Positions 9,183-42,290 of a stretch of 43,018 bases of DNA are shown one piece after another; within the stretch, counting starts at the first letter, position 1; every line of letters starts with the position of its first letter. The stretch is from Candidatus Gastranaerophilales bacterium. Its GTDB lineage: Bacteria; Cyanobacteriota; Vampirovibrionia; Gastranaerophilales; Gastranaerophilaceae. The notes under the pieces were generated by a model. That model had not been told where the DNA came from. It saw only the letters and a list, made by a program, of their open reading frames with translations, and searched no databases. The stretch spans positions 1-43,018 of the forward strand of contig CALUXX010000011.1 in the NCBI GenBank assembly GCA_944324845.1. The letters run 5' to 3'. Position numbers and translations under genes: made by a program.

Positions 9183-9680
9183 TTACATATTCTCAATGAA
9201 TCTGACCGCTTCTTCGTGGATAGATTGATTTGCTTTCTGGAGAAGTGCTTTTCTGTTCGGTGATATTTCCGGCTGTTTGGCAAGTTCTCTTGTAAACTTT
9301 GCAAGGAATGTAAATAACGGCAAAATGTGCCTGTCATTCGGCATTATGTTTATCCCGTTTAAAACAAAATTAGAGTTTGTAATTTCTCTTGCTTCATCCT
9401 GAACAGTACACCTTTTTACGGTTAATGATAAATCATCCTTGCTATTATTCAAAACACATCGTGCCTGATAACTGGCACTGCTTTTTGATAATGAATCCCA
9501 AAATTCAGTCAGGTGATTTCCTGATTTATCATTTGTAAATTTACAATTGATTGCAAATTCTTCGTATTTTTTTTCACCGTTTTTGAGTATCCCGCCCGGT
9601 GTAATATACGGGCCTAATTTAGAATATACTTTTTTGCCCGTATAAAGGCTGCTGATTCCAGTAAATGTAATATTTTGCAT
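9183..9680 (-). CDS. Hypothetical protein with N-terminal NITFTG motif (165 aa)
   Basis: Unrecognised soluble protein. It begins MQNITFTGISS, the clearest example of the shared N-terminal motif. The C-terminal third is helical and charged (ending HEEAVRFIENM). The start at 9680 is preferred over the GTG at 9695, because a TATTAT box at 9692-9687 lies only six bases upstream, making the mRNA leaderless; the motif also falls right after this Met. The AGCAAA element at 9714-9709 completes the promoter. It is convergent with the TPR gene, three bases between stops. Confidence 0.65.
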   Translation of the reverse strand: MQNITFTGISSLYTGKKVYSKLGPYITPGGILKNGEKKYEEFAINCKFTNDKSGNHLTEFWDSLSKSSASYQARCVLNNSKDDLSLTVKRCTVQDEAREITNSNFVLNGINIMPNDRHILPLFTFLAKFTRELAKQPEISPNRKALLQKANQSIHEEAVRFIENM

Positions 9681-9686
9681 ATATGT

Positions 9687-9714
9687 ATAATACACCTGAA
9701 TATAAAAATTTGCT
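9687..9714 (-). promoter_or_regulatory. AGCAAA-type promoter of the NITFTG gene
   Basis: On the minus strand GTAGCAAATTTTT begins at 9716 and TATTAT is at 9692-9687, six bases before the ATG at 9680. This is the best-defined example of the promoter with a leaderless start. Confidence 0.6.
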
Positions 9715-20290: not shown

Positions 20291-20911
20291 CTATAATTTA
20301 AACTCTGCCCAGTCATTAATATTTACTTTATCAGCAACACCATCTTTGTTGAATACAATAAACATATGATAATTGCCATCAATATCCGGGAATTGCTTAT
20401 CACTTACGGTAATTTGGTCGAATTGTTTAGTTTGCGGATTTATCTGAAATATTGTATAGTCCTTCAAAGTGCTATCTTTTCGATTTCCATATTTTGTTAT
20501 AACAACTCTTTCTTTACCCCAAAATTGATAGTCAGCATCAATTGTGCGAAAATCAGAACCATTAGGAAATAAATCCCAATAAGTGCTTCCATTAGGATCT
20601 TTTGGGAGGTGTTTTGAAGAATCTGCTTTAACCTTGTCGATTTCACCAAACATTTTTAAGCCTGTTTTCTGAAGTTCTTTAACTTCATTCCTTAATTCTT
20701 GAGGCGTAATATTAAAAAGTTTATATAAAGTTGTTTCTTTAGGAGATACCAATTCCAAGAGTTTTTCAGCCATGGAATTATTTATGATAGGCGCGCCGGA
20801 GAAAGATACGCTGTCTTTACTTAAATTCTTATTATTAATACCAGCAGGCAAACCTCTATGGCTTCGGGTCTGTATTGAAATCGGTGTAATAGAAATAGGG
20901 TTAATGTTCAT
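20291..20911 (-). CDS. Hypothetical protein with SVSFSG motif (206 aa)
   Basis: Unrecognised. A polar N-terminal stretch with repeated Pro/Ile/Ser leads to DSVSFSGAP at about 32-40, the same F-x-G motif found near the N-terminus of other proteins here. A helical segment (45-90) is followed by a beta-rich C-terminal domain (110-206) with aromatic residues, such as YWDLFPNGSDFRTIDADYQF. There is no Sec signal. AAAGGAG precedes the start, and an AGCAAAA promoter lies further up. Confidence 0.65.
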   Translation of the reverse strand: MNINPISITPISIQTRSHRGLPAGINNKNLSKDSVSFSGAPIINNSMAEKLLELVSPKETTLYKLFNITPQELRNEVKELQKTGLKMFGEIDKVKADSSKHLPKDPNGSTYWDLFPNGSDFRTIDADYQFWGKERVVITKYGNRKDSTLKDYTIFQINPQTKQFDQITVSDKQFPDIDGNYHMFIVFNKDGVADKVNINDWAEFKL

Positions 20912-36808: not shown

Positions 36809-37372
36809 CTATGCTGCTGCTACCATATCAGCTTCAAGTGCAGATAACGCTTCTGATAACATTGGTTTTACCTCTGAATGAGGATCCATTTTTGCCATCT
36901 TAGCAATTTCACGTTCTTTTGGTTTCGCAAATAATGATGTTATATCCATTGATAACATATTTTTTGCACCTTCAAATGAAACTTCTTTATTTAGAATGTT
37001 TTTTGCACCTTCTAAACTGATTTCTTTATTTCCAATTTCTTGAATTTTATTCCATGTATTAACAATACCGTCTCTTACACTTTTACCAAAAGCAACTATA
37101 CTTTCAATACCTTCGTAGAACTTGTTGCCTAAATCACTAAGAGAACCAACAAATGTTGAATAAATTCTCTTTGAACTTGCACTCAAGTTACCTGTAAAAC
37201 TAACATTTTTTGCCTCTTTTGCTTTGCTTGGTTCAAAAACATCTTCAGTTAAGATGTTTTTTTGAAAATTTGAAGCAGCAAAAGGATTACTTGTTCTTGA
37301 AGTATTTTGCTCATTCACACTTGTATTAAAAATGCGATGGCTTAGTTGGGTAATTTTCTCTACTGTTGACAT
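36809..37372 (-). CDS. Hypothetical protein with NVSFTG motif (187 aa)
   Basis: Unrecognised soluble protein. The N-terminal third is polar and probably flexible, and holds KNVSFTGNLSAS at about 56-67, the shared F-x-G motif. The middle carries a short internal duplication (KEISLEGAKNILN followed by KEVSFEGAKNMLS), and the C-terminus is helical. The start at 37372 follows GAGG; the longer form from 37399 lacks a site. It is the first gene of a two-gene operon with the 130-aa protein. Confidence 0.65.
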   Translation of the reverse strand: MSTVEKITQLSHRIFNTSVNEQNTSRTSNPFAASNFQKNILTEDVFEPSKAKEAKNVSFTGNLSASSKRIYSTFVGSLSDLGNKFYEGIESIVAFGKSVRDGIVNTWNKIQEIGNKEISLEGAKNILNKEVSFEGAKNMLSMDITSLFAKPKEREIAKMAKMDPHSEVKPMLSEALSALEADMVAAA

Positions 37373-37467
37373 GGTTAAACCTCTTTCTTTCCTATCCACG
37401 TTTAAAGTTTATCACACTGTTGAATTTTTAAATCCACCTTTTGAATGATTTGTGATAAAATAAAGCT

Positions 37468-39044: not shown

Positions 39045-39905
39045 TTAATATGATATTGTAATAATTGGTACAAAACCAAATAACTTTATACATATTTTAA
39101 ATTCCTTTTGATATATTTTTAATATAGTAAATCCCCAGAATTTTATAATATATCTTTTGCCTAAGAAAGAATTATTTTCTATTTCTATATTATTTTCATT
39201 AATATATTTTTGAAATTCAGAAATTGCCCAATAATAGTCCTGCTTTTTCTTGATATTTTGTCTGTGAACAATAGAATCAGGATTTTTTCGATAATAGTAA
39301 TACACATCTGGTACTGTAACCATATCACCCATTGTATTTAGAATTTTAATGACAATTTCAATATCCTCAAAAAATCTACCTTCGGCAAACTTAAAATTAT
39401 TATTTATAAAACTTTGTCTCAGAAATATTTTATTCCATATGTAATTATGTTTCGGAATTTGCTCAATTTCAATTTTTTCACTTATATTTTTTAATACAGC
39501 AACCTTACTAATTTCTTTTTTTACACTTTTTCTAATACCACTTACTTTGATAAAACCAGAACAGGCAATTTCACAATTATTAGTAACGGCAGATTGATAT
39601 AATTTTTCTAAATAATCTGAATCTACATAATCATCCGAATCAATAAAACAAAGAAACTCACCCTTTGCCAATTTCACACCAGCATTTCTTGCTGATGAAA
39701 CACCTTTATTATTTTGATTAACTATTATGATACGAGAATCTAATTTAGCATATTCACATAACAAGTTGTAAGAATTATCTGTGGAACCATCGTTAATACA
39801 GATAATTTCAATATCTTTAAGAGTTTGAGCACATACACTATCAAGACACTGGTTCAAATATTTTTCAACATTAAAAACTGGAATTATAACACTCACTTTT
39901 ATCAT
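39045..39905 (-). CDS. Family 2 glycosyltransferase
   Basis: A 286-residue GT-A fold enzyme. VSVIIPVFNVEKYLNQCLDS, the IICINDGSTDNS nucleotide-binding motif, and CFIDSDDYVDSDY (metal-binding DxD) are all present. The C-terminal third is less conserved and ends in a hydrophobic stretch (KLFGFVPIITISY). It probably adds a sugar to a surface glycan. AAAGGA stands before the ATG. No other polysaccharide genes surround it, so its acceptor is unknown. Confidence 0.92.
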   Translation of the reverse strand: MIKVSVIIPVFNVEKYLNQCLDSVCAQTLKDIEIICINDGSTDNSYNLLCEYAKLDSRIIIVNQNNKGVSSARNAGVKLAKGEFLCFIDSDDYVDSDYLEKLYQSAVTNNCEIACSGFIKVSGIRKSVKKEISKVAVLKNISEKIEIEQIPKHNYIWNKIFLRQSFINNNFKFAEGRFFEDIEIVIKILNTMGDMVTVPDVYYYYRKNPDSIVHRQNIKKKQDYYWAISEFQKYINENNIEIENNSFLGKRYIIKFWGFTILKIYQKEFKICIKLFGFVPIITISY

Positions 39906-40062
39906 ATAAAGTCCTTTCTAATATAGATTAAATATATTCTTTAAGATAATTTTATACACTAAACTTAATGTGTCAATATATTTAATATAATAATGTATAG
40001 ATTAGATATATTTGTCTTAATAAAAATAAGAAAATATAATATATGAATAAGAATAAGTAAAA

Positions 40063-40389
40063 ATGACATCAGAAATAAATAAACAAATAGGAAAAAGAAT
40101 TCAATATTTACGCAAACAAAAAGGGTTAAGCCAAGAAAAATTAGCTGAAGCCTTGAATATTGCAACGACTTCACTAAGTTATATCGAAACCGGTAGAGGC
40201 TTTATGACTTTGAATACACTTGAAAATATGTCAAAAATACTTGAAGTTGAACCTTACGAAATTTTTCAGCATATTAGTATTAATACAAATGAAGAAATGT
40301 ACAACTATCTTTTACAGAAGCTTGATAATATAAAAAATAACACGCAAAAATTAAAATTATTATATGACCTTTTTAAGGTTGTTTTATAG
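40063..40389 (+). CDS. XRE-family helix-turn-helix regulator
   Basis: A 108-residue DNA-binding protein. Residues 8-66 form a standard HTH_3 domain (IGKRIQYLRKQKGLSQEKLA, then a recognition helix in ATTSLSYIETGRG). The remainder is a short helical extension. TATAAT at about 40036 lies 22 or so bases before the ATG, and no Shine-Dalgarno is seen. It stands alone between the glycosyltransferase and the subtilase operon; the target is not visible. Confidence 0.87.
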   Translation: MTSEINKQIGKRIQYLRKQKGLSQEKLAEALNIATTSLSYIETGRGFMTLNTLENMSKILEVEPYEIFQHISINTNEEMYNYLLQKLDNIKNNTQKLKLLYDLFKVVL

Positions 40390-40417: not shown

Positions 40418-41770
40418 TTAAATAACACCTTCCATCATATCGTTAAGTGCAAGTTTTGCAACTCTTATAGGAGTAGAAACAGAAGTACCCGTTATTTTAT
40501 CCATAGGAACCTGATATTTTCCATCTTCGACACGCAACTGACTCATATAGTCAAATATTCTGCGAGATCTTTGGGTATAAAGCATTTTTTGCTTTTCTAG
40601 CAACGCCTTTTCTTTCATAATTTCAGGTAATGGTCTTTTAGATGAAAATAAACCAAATGTTTCTTTTTGAATATAACGCAATCTACCGTTTATAACATCT
40701 AACAAATGCTTTACCTTATCACAAGATTTACCTATCAAAGGATTTGTCGCAACGTCTTGCATTTTTTTAGACAAAAAGCCGATATCTGTCCCTGGTAAAC
40801 CTGTCAAATTTATACCATCTTTTGTCAACGTTGGTTGAAATTCCCCAAGTTCATAATGTTGAGTCAGATTTGAATTTCTTGAAAGTGAAAAATCAGAAAT
40901 TTTACCGGTTTGAGGCGATAAAGCTCCAACACCTTCGACTTTAGAATTAATCACGAGAATATTATTTGAAATAGAATTAACTTGTGACAAAGATTCTGGA
41001 GAGGCATTATTTGCAGCAGATAAAATTCTTGTACCATGCTGAGAAGAAAGCCTGTCATATATTTGCTTGTCTGCAAAGAACTTACTATACTCAATCGGCA
41101 GTTTCTTTTTTGAAAATACATCAGTGCCATAAGAACAAGATAAATAATCCAGTTTTCCACCTTTTTTGATATATTTAAAAACATTATCGAGTTCTTTAAA
41201 ATCTACAATCTCATTTCTTGTTATAGGGAAAGGTACATATTTTGCAAAAGGGTTGTTGCGACGTGCAAAAGTTGTAACCATTTCACCATGAGAAAGCCCT
41301 AAACTGCTAACCACATCTGAATAATTATCAGGAATACCAATAACTTTTGGTGTTAATTCTGCATCTTTAATAAATCCACCATTTTCATCAAGAATTCTGA
41401 CAGAAACGTTACCGCTATTTGTCTCACCTTGTTTGAGAATATTATATACCTTACCATCTTTCGGATTTACCCATTCAACTCTGGAGAAACTATCTTCTAT
41501 AGAGGTTGAAGTCAATTGTTTTAAATCCTCAGGAGTAGCTGCTGAATAATTTCTTACCAAAGGCTTTTTTACTTGTCTTATAACATTTTTATTCATATTG
41601 AGAGCAGTTTTCATTTCTTCGGTACAAAATCTTGGCAACTCAAAACTCTTACCTGTTTTAGGATAAGTCAAAACAGGATTGATACCATGGAACTTTTGCG
41701 GTTTAGTTCTTAAAACGCTTCCACCTTTCCCAACAAATAATTTTACACATTTTTGAATAGATAAACCCAT
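40418..41770 (-). CDS. Highly divergent subtilisin-like serine protease
   Basis: A protein of 450 residues (from 41770). Numbered from the longer start at 41809, the order of motifs is that of family S8: Asp141 (VRILDENGG), His174 (GLSHGEMVTT), the substrate strand KLDYLSCSYGTD (219-230), the oxyanion Asn in ILSAANNAS (267 or 268), and Ser443 in GTSVSTP. About 175 residues separate the Asn and Ser motifs, more than in subtilisin. There is no Sec signal. The ATG at 41770 is preferred as start, just after the stop of the upstream gene and preceded by GGGA. It would be a protease, but each motif deviates from consensus, so activity needs caution. Confidence 0.62.
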   Translation of the reverse strand: MGLSIQKCVKLFVGKGGSVLRTKPQKFHGINPVLTYPKTGKSFELPRFCTEEMKTALNMNKNVIRQVKKPLVRNYSAATPEDLKQLTSTSIEDSFSRVEWVNPKDGKVYNILKQGETNSGNVSVRILDENGGFIKDAELTPKVIGIPDNYSDVVSSLGLSHGEMVTTFARRNNPFAKYVPFPITRNEIVDFKELDNVFKYIKKGGKLDYLSCSYGTDVFSKKKLPIEYSKFFADKQIYDRLSSQHGTRILSAANNASPESLSQVNSISNNILVINSKVEGVGALSPQTGKISDFSLSRNSNLTQHYELGEFQPTLTKDGINLTGLPGTDIGFLSKKMQDVATNPLIGKSCDKVKHLLDVINGRLRYIQKETFGLFSSKRPLPEIMKEKALLEKQKMLYTQRSRRIFDYMSQLRVEDGKYQVPMDKITGTSVSTPIRVAKLALNDMMEGVI

Positions 41771-41774
41771 ATTA

Positions 41775-42290
41775 TTATTTCCCATTAAGAGGTATTGAAA
41801 CCCCGACATTTACACTGGTTGTATTTGCATTAACCCTTGTAACATCATAAATTTGACCTTCAACAAAAACATTAACTTTGCCAACCTTTGTTGAAACTCC
41901 AGTAAAATTTCCAACTGTTGTATCTACACCACCATTTTTATAATTAACTTTTGCAGCAATATATGGAGTAGTATAAATACTAGTATTTTTACCAACAGGA
42001 ATAGTCACAGTCGCAGGTTGAATCCTAAATTGAACAGTTTGACTATTTTCCCCAAGATTATTTCTAACTCGAAATCCGCCGGAAACACAGCTTTCACCAT
42101 AAGGCATAGAACCTTTGAAATCAATAACAGCACTCATAGGCTTACCATCAAAAGTCGCACCTACACCTGAATAAACGCCAAGGTTACCATTACCAACCTT
42201 GAATGAATTATCAACACCAGCGGTAGAAAAATTTGTCCCATCACATTGTTGAAAACTTGATACAGAAACTTTTGTATTAATATCAGGCAT
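41775..42290 (-). CDS. Beta-strand-rich hypothetical protein (171 aa)
   Basis: Unrecognised. The whole sequence alternates polar and hydrophobic residues with many Gly, Asn, Val and Thr (for example TVGNFTGVSTKVGKVNVFVE) and ends in a strand (SVNVGVSIPLNGK), as in beta-barrels or fibre-like proteins. There is no Sec signal peptide, so a normal outer-membrane barrel is unlikely. Its stop sits four bases before the preferred start of the subtilase-like gene, so the two are coupled. A GCAATTT/TATATT promoter of the shared type and an AAAGGGGAAAA ribosome binding site lie upstream. Confidence 0.6.
   Translation of the reverse strand: MPDINTKVSVSSFQQCDGTNFSTAGVDNSFKVGNGNLGVYSGVGATFDGKPMSAVIDFKGSMPYGESCVSGGFRVRNNLGENSQTVQFRIQPATVTIPVGKNTSIYTTPYIAAKVNYKNGGVDTTVGNFTGVSTKVGKVNVFVEGQIYDVTRVNANTTSVNVGVSIPLNGK

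Follow-up and report, generated by a model that had tools for sequence, protein, structure and literature searches.

A divergent, leaderless subtilase encoded behind a predicted ten-stranded β-barrel protein in a Gastranaerophilales bacterium

Two genes lie in tandem on the minus strand at positions 40418-42290 of a 43,018-nucleotide stretch of a Candidatus Gastranaerophilales genome (the window), and they raise the question of what enzyme the downstream gene encodes and whether its product works together with that of the gene upstream. A sequence-only reading had taken the 463-residue downstream product for a cryptic subtilase, perhaps secreted, and its repetitive β-strand neighbour for a carrier or inhibitor. 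Both reading frames exist as described. As raw frames they overlap by 35 nt; a protease start at Met14 (ATG 41768-41770), 4 nt past the stop codon of the upstream gene, abolishes this overlap and agrees with the N-termini of relatives ('MGLPIGK' in L034, 'MGLSVNK' in L076), and Met14 is therefore the best start. In comparison with a relative of 89% identity, dN/dS comes to about 0.13 for the protease and about 0.06 for the β protein. By this measure both genes are under purifying selection and the 463-residue frame is a real protein. The coordinates of all features are collected in the table.

Table. Positions of the features discussed, with the basis of each assignment (window coordinates unless a locus is named)
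Feature	Coordinates	Strand	Basis or remarks
463-aa ORF, raw	40418-41809	-	ORF list
Subtilase-like protease, signal-less; likeliest start Met14	40418..41770	-	ORF, homologues, alignment, start spacing, AlphaFold model me82901020f85, PDB matches
171-aa signal-less 10-stranded β-barrel protein, transmembrane type by pattern	41775..42290	-	AlphaFold, PDB matches, face analysis, distribution
N-terminal extension, residues 1-152	41354..41809	-	Model secondary structure, pLDDT; conserved TNPKDGK.Y and VRILD motifs
F/I-HGINP motif, residues 40-45	41675..41692	-	Alignment; sits in low-confidence N-terminus
Putative catalytic Asp161	41327..41329	-	D in 36/37; near-invariant with distant outgroups, motif VIDxF; end of strand 156-161
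Putative catalytic His174	41288..41290	-	Invariant; aligned to CylA HG motif
Putative oxyanion-hole Asn268	41006..41008	-	Invariant; aligned to AGN motif of solved subtilases
Variable helical insert, residues about 345-436	40502..40777	-	Helices 348-354, 363-388 and 394-423 in model
GTSVSTP motif, with putative catalytic Ser443 at 40481-40483	40469..40489	-	Invariant GTS
ISFTG/INFTG motif, examples	20291-20911, 9183-9695, 36809-37399; L116:930-2960; L035:8143-8631

Single-sequence searches of Pfam, NCBIfam and the PDB with the protease gave zero matches, in keeping with the earlier remark that it is far from textbook subtilases; a search with PF00082 likewise gave no match to the window protein or elsewhere in its own genome. 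Homologues were found in 32 of 194 related genomes (E ≤ 0.01), and by this distribution the family is clade-restricted. The window's own genome has a single copy, and in G009, G248 and G401 the gene is broken into fragments. Searches of phage and plasmid records gave no match, and an anti-phage or mobile-element role was set aside on that account. A library of defence systems gave just one weak match, within the coiled insert, and the literature searched on subtilisins or secretion in Gastranaerophilales or Melainabacteria yielded no title on this family. Among the relatives, the Pfam S8 profile (PF00082) was matched by 20 of 37 at E ≤ 0.1 (best 4.5e-6) and, in a wider set, by 9 of 20 at E ≤ 0.01 (best 1.7e-7). 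The protease alignment comprised 37 relatives, with class-wide outgroups added in a second alignment. With the family profile, PDB matches were obtained to CylA and to an intracellular serine protease of the Bacillus type (7xr8), and they strengthened to between 1.8e-6 and 3.7e-6 once the outgroups were added; subtilisins were likewise among the solved structures matched by these profiles.

The S8 order Asp-His-Ser, together with the oxyanion Asn, is present in the family and is kept with the class-wide outgroups, where the successive motifs read VIDxF, HG, a Ser that follows the next strand, AGN and GTSFAxP. His174, Asn268 and Gly441-Thr442-Ser443 are invariant in all 37 aligned relatives, and Asp161 is found in 36. 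The motif order read from the window sequence thus stood for His174, for the Asn placed near 267 (Asn268) and for GTSVSTP, but not for the Asp, which had been put at position 141. That position is D in just 21 of 37 relatives and N, S, T, G or Y in the remainder, so Asp141 is not the catalytic residue and was rejected in favour of Asp161.

The fold was examined in an AlphaFold model of the protease (mean pLDDT 84.8). A comparison with subtilisin BPN' using VIA-align gave Z 17.0 over 177 residues at 3.0 Å, and Foldseek returned subtilisins in all of its top four rows (best E 5.3e-4); the subtilisin fold, whose absence was to have counted against the assignment, is present in the model. BPN' (S8A) and the protease share this core and the Asp-His-Asn-Ser order, although they are only about 19% identical. 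Residue 463 was aligned with BPN' residue 241, at a 20-residue offset from the aligned serines (Ser443 and Ser221), and BPN' continues for about 35 residues beyond the point at which the protease domain stops. BPN' is a secreted enzyme, made with a signal peptide and a prodomain. Judged by alignment and model together, the window protein is a divergent subtilase (clan SB, S8-like) with a predicted subtilisin fold and a complete catalytic set.

Around this core the architecture is unusual. In the model, the N-terminal extension has a disordered start, followed by helices and β hairpins, ahead of the strand that carries the catalytic Asp; it resembles no known propeptide and may nonetheless act as a pro-region. 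Only 13 residues separate Asp161 from His174. The large insert noted earlier before the Ser motif was recovered as a variable helical segment, missing from the short relatives L052, L053, L055-L058 and L061. The chain ends 20 residues past Ser443, and 30 of 37 rows share a spacing of 23 residues between GTS and the C-terminus. Cysteines number between 0 and 11 across the family and are unconserved. No hydrophobic leader or signal peptide was found in the window protease or its 37 relatives, bar a doubtful start in L060; the earlier remark on the missing signal peptide was therefore correct, and the description of the protease as secreted finds no support in its N-terminus. A missing Sec signal is no proof of a cytoplasmic location, since the neighbouring barrel, seemingly membrane-bound, also lacks one.

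The closest parallel in known systems is with the Bacillus intracellular subtilisins (ISPs; 7xr8, 6f9m), which are among the best profile matches and, like the window protease, combine the S8 catalytic set with the absence of a signal peptide. ISPs are held shut by a short N-terminal propeptide with a LIPY/F motif (PMC6220982). The window protease, in contrast, has an N-terminal extension of about 150 residues without LIPY/F, and since this defining motif is missing it is not a member of the ISP group. It differs from ISPs further in its early end after the Ser, its short Asp-to-His spacing and its helical insert, and single-sequence similarity to them was not detected. CylA, a lantibiotic leader peptidase (9ekq), was aligned with the protease across the His, Asn and Ser motifs, but its N-terminal part differs and lantibiotic genes were not recognised beside the window protease.

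The partner protein has no match in Pfam or NCBIfam. A model built with 30 homologues (AlphaFold, pLDDT 92) has ten antiparallel strands and zero helix, so that the repetitive β-strand protein described earlier is predicted to be a 10-stranded antiparallel barrel. Among PDB structures the closest is TMB10_163, a transmembrane barrel designed with ten strands (8uzl; Z 16.9, 141 residues, 2.1 Å), and further matches include porins, adhesins and autotransporter barrels, mixed with the soluble barrels nitrobindin and CpeS (Z 11.0-12.7). Each strand has one hydrophobic and one polar face, and the summed face difference exceeds that of all 20,000 within-strand shuffles. In nine of ten strands, conservation is higher on the polar face and the hydrophobic face is variable; of the conserved strand glycines, 7 of 10 lie on the polar face. 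Transmembrane barrels have a conserved polar inside and a variable greasy outside. Several distant members end in SYNF, SWAF or SYKF, with a final Phe, and many outer-membrane proteins end in Phe. By this pattern the partner is predicted to be a 10-stranded barrel of the transmembrane type, resembling outer-membrane barrels and TMB10_163 in its ten antiparallel strands and the character of its faces, but differing from them in lacking both a sequence match and a signal peptide. The latter was absent from every barrel member examined; relatives start alike, and the window frame allows just four extra codons. The genome's own Omp85 proteins have leader-like N-termini, so the standard route to the outer membrane is available in this organism. 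The barrel is a conserved single-copy family with an outer-membrane look and no signal peptide. Were the outer membrane truly its place, the rule that a Sec signal is required for proteins of this kind would be called into question; were it not, the presence in the cytoplasm of a barrel with a hydrophobic face would need explaining.

Whether the two proteins form a functional pair was judged from their distribution. Of 194 genomes, 46 have the barrel gene, as do 94 of the 382 in a class-wide draw, with one match per listed genome, and a protease lies directly behind it in nine of the 46, one of these being a broken remnant; most protease relatives are not adjacent to a barrel gene. In the linked genomes the spacing is 2-15 nt and the gene order is barrel, protease, in some an HTH gene and a glycosyltransferase, and then folE2, whereas in several protease-free genomes the barrel gene directly faces folE2. 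The broken remnant, L067 (G009:C12), is flanked by folE2 and by a barrel gene that is still intact, and it shows that the protease was lost and the barrel retained. The barrel-linked proteases cluster on the tree, with L045 loosely placed. In about 117 genomes of family f1, the two genes co-occur in 17, a mild enrichment (Fisher p 0.017, without kinship correction). In a second protease clade (L039, L040, L041 and L043) a different protein of 166-172 aa, starting near VSTINIRPPQEYAKYEYEVEIDGKKQMA, is encoded 6-7 nt upstream, that of L039 without a Pfam match, and a β partner is therefore not a rule for the protease family. The low adjacency, the grouping of the linked proteases on the tree and the other upstream gene of the second clade mark the pairing as a lineage trait.

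An obligatory protease-inhibitor pair was rejected on this distribution, the barrel often being alone and most protease relatives lying elsewhere; the carrier or inhibitor role first proposed fares no better with a transmembrane-patterned partner. The tandem probably gives joint expression rather than an obligatory pairing of an enzyme with an inhibitor or carrier. In the window, two genes, one for an HTH protein and one for a glycosyltransferase of family 2, lie at 39045-40389, between the protease and folE2. Both occupy the same place in L034, and the HTH gene is also found in L033; they are absent from the other linked relatives.

For the function of the protease, we lean, with slightly better than even confidence, towards a catalytically competent leaderless subtilase, most likely a cytoplasmic, self-restrained endopeptidase like the ISPs. 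The protease would be made without a signal peptide and stay in the cytoplasm, its N-terminal extension would shut the active site, and cleavage or displacement of the extension would release an active endopeptidase, while the upstream gene would supply a separate, more widespread barrel protein that is co-expressed with it. A rather unlikely alternative is that both proteins leave the cytoplasm without a Sec signal and that the barrel serves as anchor or gate for a protease acting at the outer membrane or outside it. The shared lack of signal peptides, the transmembrane pattern of the barrel, the close spacing of the linked genes and the mild co-occurrence in family f1 are consistent with such an export, but the rarity of the adjacency is not; moreover, a 10-stranded barrel is too narrow for a folded protease, and export machinery was not recognised nearby. 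We consider it improbable that a transmembrane barrel and a subtilase, a lineage-specific pair without Sec signals, are co-made and follow an undescribed path that takes them to the cell envelope or past it.

The β protein might instead be a soluble, calycin-like barrel that inhibits an intracellular protease or feeds it substrate. Its missing signal peptide and its matches to nitrobindin and CpeS would fit, and Bacillus subtilis does have an all-β inhibitor of its intracellular subtilisin, IPI, whose gene is not beside that of the protease (PMC3901451). IPI, however, has an Ig-like fold and not a barrel, and differs from the partner also in its gene's location. Furthermore, the best structural match of the partner is a transmembrane design, its variable hydrophobic and conserved polar faces are the opposite of what a soluble barrel would lead one to expect, and in the majority of genomes with the barrel gene no protease gene adjoins it, all of which makes this reading quite unlikely. 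Least probable of all is that the protease is a decaying, functionless accessory gene whose place behind the barrel is accidental: its patchy presence and the fragmented copies point that way, but the window copy is intact, keeps all its catalytic residues and has the low dN/dS given above. The protein represents a further subtilase subfamily, restricted to a clade and overlooked by ordinary annotation, since this member has no hit in Pfam or NCBIfam, and places a familiar enzyme type in an unexpected setting, leaderless and behind a leaderless barrel.

Two further features of the window were noted. An N-terminal ISFTG/INFTG-like motif is found in several proteins that begin with low-complexity sequence, among them a 4-alpha-glucanotransferase and a DSP-type phosphatase. 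Across 565 clusters its density within the first 60 residues is about 4.9 times that elsewhere (15 versus 14 hits), compared with 0.6 times for the reversed motif, the pattern having been picked partly after examples were seen; the motif may serve this lineage as a targeting tag. Upstream of the barrel gene, where the contig ends, positions 42384-42952 contain a tandem array with a 48/97-bp unit and the arms CTCCCTCTCC and GGGAGAGGG, and the 118-aa ORF found there is repeat sequence.
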